A DNA stretch of 45,858 bases, from positions 1-45,858 of the forward strand of contig CALUQZ010000012.1 in the NCBI GenBank assembly GCA_944323055.1, in the 5' to 3' direction. The notes under the pieces were generated by a model. It made no database searches and was not told the DNA's origin. It saw only the letters and a list, made by a program, of their open reading frames with translations. This document shows, piece after piece, positions 1,468 to 31,227 of the stretch. Each line of letters opens with the position of its first letter. The first letter of the stretch is position 1. Origin of the DNA: an uncultured Acholeplasmatales bacterium (lineage in GTDB: Bacteria; Bacillota_I; Bacilli_A; Acholeplasmatales; Anaeroplasmataceae). Both the position numbers and the translations under genes were made by a program.

Positions 1468-2304
1468 TTGAGTAAAAAAAGGAAGAAAATAAGTTTAATT
1501 ATTTATTTTAGTTTAATTATCATCTTGTTAGTAGCCTCTTTATTAGTTCCTGGTTATGATTCTGGAGAATCAATTCAAGATGCTATGCAAGATGCAGTAT
1601 TGCATGAACATAATAAGATAAGTTTATTTGGAATGCTTGTAAATCCAGGCTTAATATCAAGTTATGTTGTAACAATAGTTTTATTGTTGTTTGCTTTAAT
1701 ATTACGACTATTTGTAATACCCCGATTTAAATATGAGCCGGGTAAATTTCAAATGGTCATTGAAGGAGTAGTAGGCTTATTTGATGATATGGCTAAAAGT
1801 TATAGTCCACATCATAATAGATTTTTAGGTCCTTATATTTTTGGGGCTGCTGCCTATATTTTCTTTGGTACTTTATTTGAACTAGTAGGTATCCAAATTA
1901 CCGCTATTACTGGTGTTCCGATGTCATTACCGGCTCCTTTATCTGATATTAATGGAGCTATCATGATTGGCTGTTTATCTTATTTAGTCATTATGTTTGG
2001 CGGTATTAGAGCTAATAAGGCTAAGGGTATTGTTTTAACATTAAAAGAGTTTTCTTTACCTATATCAATGTCATTTAGATTATTTGGTGCTTTACTTAGT
2101 GGTTTATTAGTTACGGAGTTGGTTTACTATTATACAGCTTTAAGTTTTGCATTACCGGTTGTTGTTGGTGTTTTATTTACTTTAATTCACGCAATTGTTC
2201 AAACATATGTCCTTACGATGTTAACAGCTATGTATTATGGTGAAGTATCGGAAGTTAAAGAGAAAAAGAAGAAAAATAAAAAGCCTAAAGAGGCATTAGC
2301 ATAG
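1468..2304 (+). CDS. atpB: ATP synthase subunit a (Fo)
   Basis: Subunit a forms the stationary half-channels of the Fo motor. The 278-residue product has several membrane helices and the conserved region SLPISMSFRLFGALLSG (about 196-212), which contains the essential arginine of the a subunit (FRLFG). The C-terminus is very lysine-rich. The start is a TTG at 1468, chosen because GAGGTG (1455-1460) lies seven bases upstream and no ATG fits. It is the first gene of the operon; no atpI precedes it. Confidence 0.93.
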   Translation: MSKKRKKISLIIYFSLIIILLVASLLVPGYDSGESIQDAMQDAVLHEHNKISLFGMLVNPGLISSYVVTIVLLLFALILRLFVIPRFKYEPGKFQMVIEGVVGLFDDMAKSYSPHHNRFLGPYIFGAAAYIFFGTLFELVGIQITAITGVPMSLPAPLSDINGAIMIGCLSYLVIMFGGIRANKAKGIVLTLKEFSLPISMSFRLFGALLSGLLVTELVYYYTALSFALPVVVGVLFTLIHAIVQTYVLTMLTAMYYGEVSEVKEKKKKNKKPKEALA

Positions 2305-7646: not shown

Positions 7647-7648
<2 letters not shown>

Positions 7649-7671
7649 ATCCGAGTATATCGGATTTTTTT
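7647..7671 (+). terminator. Rho-independent terminator of the ATPase operon
   Basis: AAATCCGA (7647-7654) pairs with TCGGATTT (7660-7667) around a five-base loop and is followed by a T run to 7671. It begins within the atpC stop codon. Confidence 0.85.
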
Positions 7672-7854: not shown

Positions 7855-7998
7855 CTTTTGTTAAAAATAAAAATAGAGAAGTTGTTAAATTAATAGACAA
7901 ATTATTTATAGCTGGGAAAGAATTTAGAAATGATAAATTGATAGCACTACACAGATAAAGTGTAATCTTTTATTTATAAAAATATGTTATGAAAGCGC

Positions 7999-8025
7999 TT
8001 GACAAAGTGGCGGGGGGGGTATAAT
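7999..8025 (+). promoter_or_regulatory. Promoter with poly-G spacer upstream of the surface-protein operon
   Basis: A consensus -35 (TTGACA, 7999-8004) and a consensus -10 (TATAAT, 8020-8025) are separated by only 15 bases, of which 8012-8019 are eight consecutive G. The optimum spacing is 17, so the promoter as sequenced should be weak. The tract is exceptional in this AT-rich DNA and can change length by slipped-strand pairing. The -35 is overlapped by TGAAAGCGCTTGACA (7990-8004), a cre-like palindrome that does not fit the right half of the CcpA consensus. Confidence 0.72.
8012..8019 (+). repeat. Homopolymeric G8 tract in promoter spacer
   Basis: Eight consecutive G lie between the -35 and -10 elements. 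Tracts of this kind in promoter spacers are the classical substrate of phase variation; two added bases would give the 17-base optimum. Confidence 0.85.
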
Positions 8026-8049
8026 TCACTTGCTAATGGAGGGAAAATT

Positions 8050-8607
8050 ATGCGTAGAAAATTTAGAATTTTTTCAACTTTGACCGCTATGGTATTAGTT
8101 TTAATTGTTATGTGTGTTGGTATTTGGGCAGCAACACAAGCAAGTGTTACAAGTACAGGTGGTAATTTAACTTTTACAGCAGGTTCTGATGTCTTTGCTA
8201 CTGTAGATTTAGATGCTAGTGGTGCTGGTACTTCAACTACATTAGATGAAACTTTCACTTTTTCAGGTAGTGAAACAAATGCTGAAGCAGCAAAATCAGT
8301 TGTATTACCAGATTTTACATTTAGTAGTGAAAACCAAACTTATACATTTACTATAGCTGTAACTAACACTTATAGTGGCTCTGATGAAACATATAATTTA
8401 AATGCTTCACTTCAATTGACTGAAGTAGATGAGTCAAATCAATTTACGGTTCAAGTTAATAGTGTAGATTATTCAACACCATTAAATCAAACAATTGCTA
8501 AAGGTGCAAATAAAACATTCACTGTAACAGTAACTTATACGGGTGACTTTGCTACATCTGCAACTGGTAGTATTAATTTTATTTTGCAATTAACAAAAGG
8601 GGTATAA
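8050..8607 (+). CDS. Small secreted surface protein, SipW-dependent type (TasA/camelysin-like)
   Basis: This 185-residue protein has an N-terminal signal segment: basic start MRRKFR, hydrophobic core at about 10-26, and GIWAATQASV at the likely processing site. The rest is a Thr/Ser/Asn-rich, beta-strand-type domain with no cysteine after the signal. Composition, size and the adjacent SipW-type signal peptidase resemble TasA, CalY and related fibre-forming proteins, but no diagnostic motif proves this. ATG 8050 is chosen because GGAGGG lies just upstream; the frame's extension to 7999 runs through the promoter and cannot be translated. It is the first gene after the poly-G promoter, and the two following genes are probably cotranscribed. 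Confidence 0.75.
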   Translation: MRRKFRIFSTLTAMVLVLIVMCVGIWAATQASVTSTGGNLTFTAGSDVFATVDLDASGAGTSTTLDETFTFSGSETNAEAAKSVVLPDFTFSSENQTYTFTIAVTNTYSGSDETYNLNASLQLTEVDESNQFTVQVNSVDYSTPLNQTIAKGANKTFTVTVTYTGDFATSATGSINFILQLTKGV

Positions 8608-8648
8608 TTAAATAATTAATATGAATAAGCATAAAGGAAGGGATATAT

Positions 8649-9425
8649 ATGAAATTAGCTAAAAATAAGTTTTTATCATGTATATTGAATCTTGTTATAG
8701 ACCTTCTCTTTATGCTTGTTTTATTATTTGCTATTGCTATGGCTATAACAACATTATCAACATATAATACAATTTTTGGATATCGTCTTGGTATTGTTAG
8801 TTCTAAAAGTATGGAAAACAGTGATTTGTTTGTTGGAGATATTGTTTTTCTAAAGTCCGAGGAGACTTATCAAGTTGGTGATATTATAGCCTTTTATCGT
8901 GCTCCTTCTTTGTATAATGAAGATAATATTGATAGAAATGATTATAAGAATTATCCTATATGGATTCATGAAGTAGTAGATATACAAATTGATGAAAATG
9001 GTAATTATTCCTATTTAACTAAAGGTAGCAGCAATGTATTAGATGATATGTTTTATGTTCCTCAAAATTTTGTTATTGGTTCAGGTGAAAAACTATCACC
9101 ATTTTTGAATAGTACTGTTCAATTTATTATTTCTAGAATTGGTATTATATGTTTAGTTATAGTTCCATGTATTATAATGTTAATATATTTATCTTGGGAA
9201 TTAGTCATGTTACTAACTGAAGAACCAGATTACAAGAGATTTAGATATAAGGGAAGATATTATAATCTTTTAGAGAATAAAAATACTAATAAATTAAACT
9301 TAAATCAGAATGTAATTAAAGTCGGTTTAATTCCTTATAATAAATATAATTTAGATATGAGTAAATACCCATCTAAAATTAAAATAAATATTAAAGTAAA
9401 TGGTAAGGGTGTGATAAAGAAATGA
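8649..9425 (+). CDS. Signal peptidase I, SipW/ER type
   Basis: A membrane-bound signal peptidase of 258 residues. An N-terminal helix (about 13-35) precedes the catalytic serine in SSKSMENSD (about residue 56) and the GDIVFLKS and GDIIAFYR strands. Where bacterial Lep enzymes have a lysine, this one has WIHEVVD, so the pair is Ser-His, as in SipW and the ER signal peptidases. A second hydrophobic segment (about 158-190) is followed by an unusually long, basic, cytoplasmic-type tail of about 65 residues of unknown role. It is dedicated by context to the secreted proteins encoded on both sides. AAGGAAGGGAT precedes the start, and the end overlaps the next gene by four bases (ATGA). Confidence 0.88.
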   Translation: MKLAKNKFLSCILNLVIDLLFMLVLLFAIAMAITTLSTYNTIFGYRLGIVSSKSMENSDLFVGDIVFLKSEETYQVGDIIAFYRAPSLYNEDNIDRNDYKNYPIWIHEVVDIQIDENGNYSYLTKGSSNVLDDMFYVPQNFVIGSGEKLSPFLNSTVQFIISRIGIICLVIVPCIIMLIYLSWELVMLLTEEPDYKRFRYKGRYYNLLENKNTNKLNLNQNVIKVGLIPYNKYNLDMSKYPSKIKINIKVNGKGVIKK

Positions 9426-10711
9426 GAACAAAAATCCGCTTAATAACAACAATATTAAGTTTATCTTTAGTGTGTATATGTGTAGTATTTGGCGTTTCTT
9501 TATCACTTAAAGCTGCTAGTAATATAGATATATCTGGTGGAGGTGGTGGTTTATCATTTACGCCAGAGATAAGTATTGATGATCAAAAAAACATACTAGA
9601 GGCTTCAGGTTTTCATGCAACAGGTGATAGGATTACTTTGCAAATGGAAGATGATTATACTTCTATTACTCAAGATGCCAATTTGGAAGCCAAAAATAAT
9701 GCCATAAATAATAAAATATTGAGTTTTGAATTATATAAAAAAATAGACTGTGATACCCAATTAGAAATATATGAATTACAAATAGTTTTGGACTTTTCTA
9801 AGTTTAATATAGTTAGATATGCTGGCGAATTTTTATTACACTATAATTATGTAGTTTTTTATACAAACGAGTCAAACTATCATATTAATATGTATAATTT
9901 TTATTCTGGTGAAAACTTAGGAGAATATATTTTAACATTGGGAAATGGTGGTTTTTCTATTAATATTGATACTAATAATATAACTTATACATATAAAATA
10001 ATTCTAAATAGTGTTAATTATGATGATGTTGATGATTTGTACTTACCTAATAATTGTTTTAATATAGAAGAAGTTATATCTATCAATGATCAAAATAATC
10101 AAACACCTAATGTTATTTATTTGGATTTTTCAAATACTAATATTATAGTTGAGAAAAATAGTGATGGGGAATTGGTTTTAAATGGAATAGCTTATGGTTC
10201 TGATATAGGCAGTTCAGCACCTCCAGAAGAAATCAGTCTATCTAATATTCCGCATTTTCATATAATAGGTTCTACTAATAGTCAATATGAAGCAGCTATG
10301 GTATTAGTAAAGGATTACATAACAAGTGGGCATGATAATTATGAAATGTCGATATATAGTAAAAATGGTGCTTATAGTTATTCTATATTAGCTAAATTAA
10401 GTTATTTAAATGGATTAGTTGTTGATGTTGTTGATGATACATATTATAGTGATAGTAATTTAAATGATACACAAAGAAAAGCTATTTTAGATATGTGTTA
10501 TTGGGTAGTAACTAATTTAGATAATATTAATATAGCTATTTATCATCAAAAAGTAAATGATGATATGTCATTTAATACTAGTGCTAGATATGAAGTAAAC
10601 TATGAGTTAGATTCAAATAAAGGGGCAGGTTGGTATAGAGCTTATTATACTAGTGATAATACATTAATAGGTTATTTTAATAGTAATAATTATCAAATAA
10701 GTTTTACTTAA
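9422..10711 (+). CDS. Large secreted protein of the SipW cluster, function unknown
   Basis: 429 residues with an N-terminal signal segment (hydrophobic core about 8-28, then SLKAASNIDISGGGGG, a processing region like that of the first gene of the cluster). The mature part is rich in Asn, Tyr, Asp and Ile, has no recognised domain and carries no C-terminal membrane helix or LPXTG-type sorting signal. The start overlaps the signal peptidase stop (ATGA), so the two are translationally coupled and this protein is probably a substrate of that enzyme. No terminator of its own follows; the terminator in the glnA leader may end the transcript. It could be a minor fibre subunit or anchor, but the sequence does not show this. 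Confidence 0.68.
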   Translation: MRTKIRLITTILSLSLVCICVVFGVSLSLKAASNIDISGGGGGLSFTPEISIDDQKNILEASGFHATGDRITLQMEDDYTSITQDANLEAKNNAINNKILSFELYKKIDCDTQLEIYELQIVLDFSKFNIVRYAGEFLLHYNYVVFYTNESNYHINMYNFYSGENLGEYILTLGNGGFSINIDTNNITYTYKIILNSVNYDDVDDLYLPNNCFNIEEVISINDQNNQTPNVIYLDFSNTNIIVEKNSDGELVLNGIAYGSDIGSSAPPEEISLSNIPHFHIIGSTNSQYEAAMVLVKDYITSGHDNYEMSIYSKNGAYSYSILAKLSYLNGLVVDVVDDTYYSDSNLNDTQRKAILDMCYWVVTNLDNINIAIYHQKVNDDMSFNTSARYEVNYELDSNKGAGWYRAYYTSDNTLIGYFNSNNYQISFT

Positions 10712-10727: not shown

Positions 10728-10756
10728 TTGACATCAGTTTATTTGTTTGTTATTAT
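10728..10756 (+). promoter_or_regulatory. Promoter of glnA
   Basis: TTGACA (10728-10733), a 17-base spacer, then TATTAT (10751-10756). The predicted start of transcription (about 10763) is at the first leader hairpin, roughly 90 bases before the glnA start codon. Confidence 0.72.
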
Positions 10757-10762
10757 ATTTGC

Positions 10763-10827
10763 GAGCAAGGGAGCTCTATTAAATATCAATTATGCAAGGT
10801 TGCAAGTTCTTTTTTGCAACCTTTTTT
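10763..10827 (+). ncRNA. glnA leader: two hexaloop hairpins plus terminator (ANTAR-type antitermination candidate)
   Basis: Hairpin 1 is GAGC (10763-10766), hexaloop AAGGGA, GCTC (10773-10776). Hairpin 2 is TGC (10793-10795), hexaloop AAGGTT, GCA (10802-10804). Both loops have A at position 1 and G at position 4, the rule for RNA sites bound by ANTAR-domain antiterminators such as EutV and NasR. The second hairpin uses bases of the 5' arm of the terminator (10796-10805), so the two structures exclude each other. The second stem is only three pairs, which is weak. No ANTAR protein is encoded in the window. Confidence 0.55.
10796..10827 (+). terminator. Leader terminator (attenuator) upstream of glnA
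   Basis: AAGGTTGCAA (10796-10805) pairs with TTGCAACCTT (10814-10823) and is followed by T to 10827. It lies between the glnA promoter and its start codon, so transcription of glnA requires readthrough. It may also end transcripts from the upstream surface-protein operon. Confidence 0.8.
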
Positions 10828-28780: not shown

Positions 28781-28800
28781 TAAACAATGAGGTGAAGCTT

Positions 28801-31227
28801 ATGGTCTATCTTTTATTATCGGTTTTGTTTTTTGGCACATCAAGTGTATTATGGTATTTTTATAGTTTAAGACTTGATACTTATTTAGTTTTTTTAATAT
28901 TTGCGTCTATAACAATGCTTTTAGGAGTAATGATATTATTTTATTACTTTTATTTAAAAAAAGATAAAGAAGTCAAAAAATTAAAAAACCAAATTGAAAT
29001 ATGGTCAGATACTACTTATCATATTAATGCAGCTGGTGATATGGCTTTTCAAATGTTACCTATAGGTATTTTAATATATGATAAGAATTTTACGATTAAA
29101 TGGTTTAATGATTATGCTCAAAGTTGTTTAAAAAAGAGCTTGAAGGATGTTAATATAGTAGATATTAATGAAGGATTAAAAAGATTTATTTTAAATAATG
29201 ACGATAGTTTTATTTTAAAACTTAATGATAAGACTTATGAGTTTAATGCTAAAAGAGAAAATAGAATTCTTTATTTTTTTGATATAACAAAAGAAACAGA
29301 ATTACAAGTTAAATATAATAATAATATTTTAGCTATAGGTGTTATTATTGTAGACAACTTAGAAGAAAGCTTAAAAAAATATGATTTACAAGAAAAAACG
29401 ACAATTAGTGGTCAAATTTTTGGGGAAATAGCTAAATGGGCAGCTAGTTATAATTGTTTTTTTGAAACTTTAGATGATGATAGAATTTTAGTTGTTAGTA
29501 CAAGAGAAGAATTAAATAAAATGATTGAAAATAAATTTGACATTTTAGAAAAAATTAGAGCGTTATCAAAAGCTAGTAGATTAAAAACAACTATTAGTAT
29601 AGGTATTGCCTCTTATGATTCTTTTCCGGTTAAAGTTGGTGAACTAGCAGTAAATGCGGTCGAGTTAGCTGAAAAAAGAGGTGGAGACCAAGCTGTTGTC
29701 AATTTAGAGGATAATAAAGTTCAATTTATTGGTGGTCAAGTTAATGCTGTTGAGAAAAACACTTTAGTATCTGTTAGAAGTGAGACTAATGCTATTAAAG
29801 ATTTAACAGAAAAAAGTGATAAAGTATTGATTATGGCTCATGATAGAGCTGATTGTGATGCTTTAGGGGCTATGATTGGTATGTATGAAATTATAACTAG
29901 TTTTAAAGCTACAGCTAAAATTGCTTTAAGTTATGATAGATTAGATATTACAGCTAAAAAAGCCTATGATTTACTTATAAAAGATGATCCAAGTTTTGAG
30001 AGTAATATATTAGATGAAGAAAGAGCGCTTAACTATTTAACAGACAATACTTTATTAATTGTGTGTGATACGCAATCTCCTAATTTGGTTATGTTTAGAA
30101 GTGTTTTAGATGCAGCTACACATTTAGTTATCATTGATCATCATAGAATTTCTGATACACATTTTGCTCACTATGATACGGCTTTAATTGAAACATCGGC
30201 ATCTTCAACAGTTGAGTTAATAGCAACGATGTTAATGTTTATAAGTGAAGCTAAATTAACAAAAGTTGAAGCTACTATTATGTTAGCTGGTGTTGTTGTT
30301 GATACTAACTATTTTACATATAGAACTAATAATCATACATTTGAAGCAGTTTCTGTTTTAAAAGAGTATGAAGCAGAAATGGTAGAGGTTAAAAAGTTCT
30401 TGCGTGATACCTATGATGCAGAAAAAATTATTTCAGAAGCTATTTTGAACACAGAAATAGTATTAAATTCTTTTGCGATAGCTGTAATTGAAGATAAGAC
30501 TTATGAAGATAGGACAATTTTAGCTAAAATATCTGATAGATTATTAACAATTGCAGGAGTTGAAGCTAGTTTCACGATTGCTAAAGTTGGTGATAATGAA
30601 ATTGGCATATCAGCTCGTAGTTTAGATACAGTAAATGTACAAGCTATTATGGAAGAAATGGGTGGTGGTGGTCACTCTCAGGCTGCTGCTAATCAAATTA
30701 AAGATAAAACGGTTGCTGAAGTAAAAGAATGGTTAATAGCTATTTTAAAAAGAGATTATGAAGATTTAAAGGGTGAAGAAAAGATGAAGGTTATATTGTT
30801 AAGAGATGTAAAAGGCAAAGGTAAGAAAGATGATGTAATTGAAGTTAATAATGGTTATGGTAATTTCTTAATTAACAATAATGATGCTATTTTGTCAACT
30901 GAACAAAATCTAAAGAAATTAGAAGAAAATAAAAAACAAGAAGAAATTGAAAAAGAACAAAGAAGACAATTGTTATTAACTTTAAAACAAGAAATTGAAA
31001 ATAAAACAGTTACTATTTATATTAAACAAGGGGCAGACGGCAAATTGTTTGGTCATGTAACAACTAAACAAATTGTTGAAGAATTTGAAGCTCAAAATGG
31101 TATTAAATTAGATAAAAGAAAACTTGAATTACCAGCAGATATTAATGCTATTGGTATTTATCAAGGAGTAATTAATTTAGATAAGGATATTCAAGCTAAT
31201 TTTCAAATTAATGTTGTAGGTCAATAA
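28801..31227 (+). CDS. GdpP-type c-di-AMP phosphodiesterase fused to ribosomal protein bL9
   Basis: One frame of 808 residues. Residues 1-660 are GdpP: two membrane helices (about 5-55), a PAS-like domain, a degenerate GGDEF domain (EKRGGDQAVVN), and a DHH-DHHA1 phosphodiesterase (DRADCDAL at about 349, DHHRIS, GGGGHSQAA). From about residue 662 the chain is bL9 (MKVILLRDVKGKGKKDDVIEV ... GKLFGHVT). The last GdpP codons run in frame into the L9 start without a stop. AAAGGGTGA precedes the internal ATG 30784, so free bL9 may also be made. ATG 28801 has GAGGTGA upstream. The two genes are adjacent in most Bacillota, and from memory CDD holds a model for this fusion. Confidence 0.92.
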   Translation: MVYLLLSVLFFGTSSVLWYFYSLRLDTYLVFLIFASITMLLGVMILFYYFYLKKDKEVKKLKNQIEIWSDTTYHINAAGDMAFQMLPIGILIYDKNFTIKWFNDYAQSCLKKSLKDVNIVDINEGLKRFILNNDDSFILKLNDKTYEFNAKRENRILYFFDITKETELQVKYNNNILAIGVIIVDNLEESLKKYDLQEKTTISGQIFGEIAKWAASYNCFFETLDDDRILVVSTREELNKMIENKFDILEKIRALSKASRLKTTISIGIASYDSFPVKVGELAVNAVELAEKRGGDQAVVNLEDNKVQFIGGQVNAVEKNTLVSVRSETNAIKDLTEKSDKVLIMAHDRADCDALGAMIGMYEIITSFKATAKIALSYDRLDITAKKAYDLLIKDDPSFESNILDEERALNYLTDNTLLIVCDTQSPNLVMFRSVLDAATHLVIIDHHRISDTHFAHYDTALIETSASSTVELIATMLMFISEAKLTKVEATIMLAGVVVDTNYFTYRTNNHTFEAVSVLKEYEAEMVEVKKFLRDTYDAEKIISEAILNTEIVLNSFAIAVIEDKTYEDRTILAKISDRLLTIAGVEASFTIAKVGDNEIGISARSLDTVNVQAIMEEMGGGGHSQAAANQIKDKTVAEVKEWLIAILKRDYEDLKGEEKMKVILLRDVKGKGKKDDVIEVNNGYGNFLINNNDAILSTEQNLKKLEENKKQEEIEKEQRRQLLLTLKQEIENKTVTIYIKQGADGKLFGHVTTKQIVEEFEAQNGIKLDKRKLELPADINAIGIYQGVINLDKDIQANFQINVVGQ
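30768..30786 (+). promoter_or_regulatory. rplI: Internal ribosome site and ATG for free bL9
   Basis: AAAGGGTGA (30768-30776) lies about eight bases before an in-frame ATG (30784) exactly at the natural N-terminus of bL9. It would give a separate 147-residue ribosomal protein from within the fused frame (30784-31227). Confidence 0.65.

Follow-up and report, generated by a model that had tools for sequence, protein, structure and literature searches.

Promoters in which a poly-G tract separates the −35 and −10 elements of a surface-protein gene are known from the tp0126 and tpr genes of Treponema pallidum; transcription of tp0126 is best at a spacer of 17, and the poly-G tract of tprL has been recorded at lengths of 7 to 11 (PMC7864442). 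In Neisseria meningitidis, homopolymers in the core promoters of porA, fetA and opc likewise set the level of expression (PMC2791445, PMC7864442), and shortening of the −35/−10 spacing abolishes transcription of porA (PMC7864442; see also PMC2791445). Among Gram-positive commensals, Cutibacterium (Propionibacterium) acnes has a G/C homopolymer between the −10 and −35 elements at HPT_37, where the C5 and C7 alleles show a two-fold difference in expression (PMC4746626). In the gut commensal Bifidobacterium breve, slippage in poly-G tracts controls surface structures, in this case pili, and has been measured in mice (PMC9187656).

We describe here a promoter of the same general design, located in a window of 45,858 nucleotides (the whole stretch of DNA that was analysed), and we posit that its tract of eight G is probably a length-based on/off switch of the three-gene operon at 8050-10711. 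The locus differs from each of its counterparts. Length variation and its effect on the promoter have been demonstrated in T. pallidum, a spirochaete pathogen with outer-membrane cargo, and population-level switching has been proven in the Gram-negative N. meningitidis, whereas the window's site is known from its sequence. The C. acnes tract is short, precedes an enzyme gene and represents a difference between strains instead of shown switching, and the B. breve tracts lie within a reading frame and not in a promoter spacer.

The promoter and its operon

The poly-G promoter, read directly from the window, is TTGACAAAGTGGCGGGGGGGGTATAAT. The initial annotation had described consensus TTGACA and TATAAT boxes 15 bases apart with eight G in the spacer, and this is exact: the spacer (8005-8019) is 15 nt long, its final 8 nt are all G, and the tract lies flush against the −10 element (Table 1). 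With a start predicted near 8032 and an ATG at 8050, the leader would be short. The orthologues share an MR(R/K)KFR start with a Shine-Dalgarno sequence just upstream, which fixes 8050 as the start of gene 1; a 202-aa frame running from TTG 7999 through the tract was rejected in view of this shared start. A cre-like palindrome, one base out of register relative to the consensus, overlaps the −35 element and is kept in five of six species (the window's, G002, G003, G004 and G006) as AAGCGCTT or AAACGCTT. LacI-family regulators are present, none exceeding the ccpA cut-off, and the palindrome may add LacI/CcpA-type control of the operon promoter.

Table 1. Features of the poly-G promoter and the operon downstream of it, in window coordinates
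Feature	Position	Strand	Basis or remarks
Cre-like palindrome overlapping the −35, TGAAAGCGCTTGACA with AAGCGCTT	7990..8004	+	Candidate CcpA/LacI-type operator; putative function
−35 hexamer TTGACA, perfect	7999..8004	+	Sequence; identical in G002, G003, G006, G007; TTGATA in G004
Fixed 5' part of spacer, AAGTGGC	8005..8011	+	Sequence; counterparts of 9-10 nt in sister species: AAATACTAC, AAACTATAC, AAAGTATACC
G8 tract, predicted to be slippage-prone and to set spacer length	8012..8019	+	G6/G8/G8/G9 in orthologues
−10 hexamer TATAAT, perfect	8020..8025	+	Sequence; predicted start ~8031-8033
Shine-Dalgarno GGAGGG	~8038..8043	+	Sequence
Gene 1, secreted/anchored protein, 185 aa	8050..8607	+	Long hydrophobic helix at the N terminus, followed by predicted beta-strands
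Gene 2, SipW/ER-type signal peptidase I, 258 aa	8649..9425	+	TIGR02228, 56.0 bits (cut-off 51.85)
Gene 3, another predicted secreted protein, 429 aa	9422..10711	+	4-nt overlap with gene 2

The tapA-sipW-tasA operon of Bacillus subtilis joins secreted proteins and an ER-type signal peptidase in one transcription unit, and we know of no control of that operon by tract slippage. The window's operon has the same combination, and its secreted proteins show no sequence relation to TasA. Its ER/SipW-type signal peptidase, the component by which a SipW-type operon is recognised, is gene 2, which also matched SEC11A weakly in a phmmer search (E 0.008) and scored 51.8 bits with the Bacillus SipW equivalog NF046067, below the cut-off of 190. 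The operon's cargo is surface or secreted, as is usual, if not strictly defining, for promoter-spacer phase variation of the porA/tp0126 type. Genes 1 and 3 matched no TasA/camelysin or SipW-cognate model in Pfam or NCBIfam and gave no meaningful PDB profile match. The "SipW/TasA-like" label first given to the operon can therefore be kept in its SipW half, on the strength of the TIGR02228 score, and not in its TasA half, behind which there is gene order with neither a family nor a PDB match. The search of Pfam and NCBIfam returned no family match of any kind for gene 1, the orthologues of which are conserved in the signal region and divergent in the rest; a structure model built from its single sequence was of low confidence (pLDDT 55.5), too poor for judging the fold. 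Orthologues of gene 3 are 33-40% identical.

Upstream of the promoter, the F1Fo ATPase operon comes to its end, and a terminator-like site is found there at 7647-7667. Beyond the operon, the interval 10728-10823 contains a promoter-like TTGACA-17-TATTAT and then a terminator-like hairpin, and is possibly an attenuated leader of the glutamine synthetase gene that follows (ATG 10853). Elsewhere in the window, a single 811-aa ORF (28792-31227) combines a GdpP-type c-di-AMP phosphodiesterase (PAS, GGDEF, DHH, DHHA1) with a complete ribosomal protein L9 that has both its N and C domains, and an Rfam group II intron match of 41.6 bits was found at the left end (158-228).

Tract length in relatives and the wider class

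The tract had been called extraordinary for DNA this rich in A and T, and the counts agree: it is the sole G8 in the window on either strand, where dinucleotide shuffles gave a mean of 0.06 and 4 of 100 contained one, and the promoter's part of the window is 29% GC. The whole source genome (1.62 Mb in 48 contigs) has three tracts of at least seven G, and no promoter other than the window's contains one: the second tract is a G8 in a kinase-like ORF, some 190 nt away from the end of its contig, and the third a G11 on a 3.5-kb contig. Perfect TTGACA-N14-21-TATAAT promoters number 40 in this genome, and one of them has a poly-G spacer. No second copy of the operon locus was found in the source genome.

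The orthologous operon was sought in seven congeneric genomes by a search with the signal peptidase, and was present in five, G001 yielding a weak match only. Four of these five carry a poly-G promoter in the same place: TTGACA-AAAGTATACC-G6-TATAAT in G002 (spacer 16), AAACTATAC-G8 in G003 (spacer 17), AAAGTATACC-G8 in G006 (spacer 18) and AAATACTAC-G9 in G007 (spacer 18). The fifth, G004, has TTGATA-N17-TAAAAT, with an ordinary AT spacer of 17 and no G tract, and hence the tract is not required to make a promoter. Across the orthologues the position of the promoter is conserved and the length of the tract is not, and the tract can be missing where the spacer is kept at 17. The variation in tract length that the initial annotation had predicted is thus present at the orthologous site (G6, G8, G8, G8 and G9, with spacers of 15-18 between species), and the comparison of relatives finds a two-G difference between alleles, the G6 of G002 and the G8 of G006, with flanks 97-98% identical, in what are separate species representatives and not one strain. 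The locus therefore has both a homopolymer between −35 and −10, of the porA/tp0126 type, and a length difference between near-identical alleles, as would be expected of a phase-variable promoter.

Other tracts in these bacteria give mixed signs of slippage. Where paralogous promoters share a contig, their tracts can be of unequal length (G10/G9 at L141, G8/G12 at L172, and also at L122). Two pairs of near-identical promoters nevertheless agree in length (L220/L228, G10/G10, 98%; L205/L213, G9/G9, 97%), so that tracts do not change at every step; a tract length taken from a MAG assembly may be imprecise. A dam-like methyltransferase gene of G007 (L084; G007:C1, ~2019-2028, minus strand) contains a G10 tract at which the frame VKWAGG...KRQIL is broken, which, if not due to faulty assembly, would be a further indication that G tracts slip in this genus, and which makes the gene a candidate phase-variable DNA methylase. 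Missing mismatch repair was considered as a cause of tract instability and rejected: each of the 8 genomes of the genus has mutS, and slippage is therefore not aided by the absence of MutS. We also note a conserved G8/G8/G9 tract at L070, L071 and L075 (G006, G002 and G004, respectively), which forms the apparent Shine-Dalgarno sequence of a gene that resembles HAD phosphatases and starts with a codon other than ATG.

The layout is not restricted to SipW operons and occurs at multiple loci. A search of 160 genomes of the order with the pattern TTGACA-N5-15-G6-TATAAT returned 32 sites, all within the window's family, where 15 of 55 genomes had at least one, and none in the 105 genomes of other families; the reversed pattern, used as a control, gave no site in the 160. 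Sites were present in 21 of 395 genomes of a class-wide sample, and a wider scan of one genome per species in GTDB 220 gave at least 119 stretches spanning Bacilli, Clostridia, Saccharibacteria, Spirochaetia, Streptobacillus, Helicobacter and others. Isolate genomes, among them those of Streptobacillus notomytis and Blautia luti, carry the same layout. Up to nine poly-G promoters were found per genome, and most of the hosts are gut bacteria whose assemblies come from rabbit, ruminant, chicken and other animals. Within the genus, promoter spacers account for 11 of the roughly 18 tracts of at least eight G. One viral contig only carries the pattern, and phage copies were accordingly set aside as a source of population variants.

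Diverse cargo lies behind the family's poly-G promoters, including prepilin-like proteins (G001, G004), lipoproteins and other signal-peptide proteins. Signal-peptide-like N termini follow 19 of 28 of these promoters, compared with 5 of 27 perfect promoters of the ordinary kind in the same family (Fisher p = 2.5e-4, or p = 0.004 with orthologues collapsed), as judged for both sets by one crude predictor that accepts some membrane proteins, and against a small control set; the view that secreted proteins are the type of cargo placed under such a promoter is in keeping with this excess. In the wider set, among the matches listed, 87 of 116 have a predicted signal peptide and 24 a lipobox-like motif, with a control drawn from other species that makes the p value indicative only. 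About two thirds to three quarters of poly-G promoters thus precede predicted secreted, lipoprotein or membrane proteins. One case is an array in the Bacilli genome G481 (L288 and L289, G481:C6:5000-32000, with a further copy, L290, on G481:C41), in which each gene has its own poly-G promoter; seven of the promoters are near-identical with pure tracts, six of G9 and one of G8, and one more has an interrupted tract, GAGGGGGG. The encoded proteins are paralogous, beginning MKNLKMFAIGL... with a signal peptide and, where complete, ending in a hydrophobic anchor of the ILVYASLGLVSALTVGFTAKRKENN type, and the array is a candidate combinatorial antigenic repertoire.

The spacers of 174 poly-G promoters range from 13 to 20 with a mode of 18-19, compared with 16-17 for 95 ordinary promoters from three congeneric genomes; the pattern of the large scan is blind to spacers above 20, and the order and class searches, which allowed 21, found none above 20. 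It had been argued that slippage by +2 would bring the window's spacer to an optimum of 17. The arithmetic is correct, and yet 17 is not the commonest state among the assembled promoters of the class. Many assembled alleles are one or two bases beyond the usual spacing, which fits populations that are mostly in a weaker state, or else this type of promoter may have a different optimum. A negative correlation between the length of the 5' part of the spacer and that of the tract was discarded, as it is partly produced by the length limit of the pattern.

Alternatives to a length switch

Homopolymers are error-prone, and some poly-G tracts of the genus lie at contig ends, as might be expected if the tract or its length were an artefact of MAG sequencing or assembly. 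However, independent assemblies of five species carry the tract at the orthologous place, reversed-pattern controls found none, and isolates show the same layout; an artefact is consequently unlikely in the extreme, and at most the exact length would be wrong. It may also be asked whether the tract, with ATAC/GTAT flanks, is a fixed operator, constrained in length, of a metal-sensing repressor of the CsoR/RcnR type (DUF156). This family has G-tract operators, which the ATAC-Gn-TAT read in several relatives resembles, and a PF02583 protein of this type is encoded by 15 of 18 genomes tested. The window, however, has TGGC and not ATAC before its G8 tract, and tract lengths in the class run from G6 to G14, which speaks against an operator of constrained length. 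A CsoR/RcnR operator should moreover co-occur with its regulator and resemble that regulator's own operator, and this is not what was found: G001 and G005 have poly-G promoters with no detected PF02583 protein, and csoR promoters bear a different operator of their own (GTATACCCCATATAGGTATA in G030, ATATACCACTAGGGGGTATAT in G017 at L245). We hold this explanation to be very improbable.

A somewhat less remote alternative is that the G-rich spacer is constitutive, acting through rigid or A-form DNA or as the site of an unidentified regulator, and that it tunes promoter strength or the response to supercoiling while its length drifts neutrally. A constitutive spacer would explain L300, L302 and L303, where interrupted G-rich spacers of 17-18 bp (GGGAGGGG, GGGGGAGGG and GGAGGGG) precede the same types of cargo; these should not slip readily, and are perhaps derivatives locked in one state, unless it is the richness in G as such that counts. 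The displaced peak of spacer lengths also counts for it, as does the enrichment of AAA in the first bases of the spacer (64 of 174 poly-G promoters against 11 of 95 ordinary ones). Against it stand the predominance of pure tracts of 8-11, which are the rule even though the search pattern favours them, and the G004 orthologue, which manages with no tract at all. Furthermore, spacer changes of 1-2 bp usually alter the strength of sigma-A promoters, so that drift in length would not be neutral, and on balance we consider a constitutive spacer unlikely.

A proposed switch and its reach

We therefore return to the length-based switch. The anatomy of the promoter, the differences in tract length between orthologous promoters of different species and the repeated occurrence of the layout before other surface genes are direct observations; slippage within populations and its effect on transcription we infer. 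We suggest that the G8 tract would serve as the length-variable spacer of a sigma-A-type promoter driving the three genes. Slipped-strand mispairing during replication would add or remove Gs and so shift the distance between −35 and −10, and RNA polymerase would be expected to work well near a spacing of 16-18 bp and poorly outside it, such that cells of one population would express the operon to different degrees, in a manner both heritable and reversible. With its spacer of 15, the sequenced allele should then be weak or off, and the operon should be turned on when one to three Gs are added. Beyond this locus, we lean slightly towards the view that in uncultured Bacilli and Clostridia of the gut, poly-G spacers place surface proteins in genome-wide, multi-locus "phasomes", the G481 array included.

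The mechanism itself is known from porA and tp0126, while the host group, the cargo and the multi-locus extent appear to be new. In the open-access literature we found no report of phase variation in the Anaeroplasmataceae and, from titles and term counts, none of a poly-G promoter switch in that family or on a SipW-type operon. Of more interest than the window's site itself is how widely the class extends among gut bacteria, and this bears on why multi-locus phase variation is known mainly from pathogens (PMC11868660). Since a simple pattern detects the class, switching can be measured directly in metagenome reads that are already available. If the proposal is true, apparent commensals would display combinatorial surface variation, and at the locus described here one tract would switch a whole secretion module together, the substrates along with their signal peptidase.
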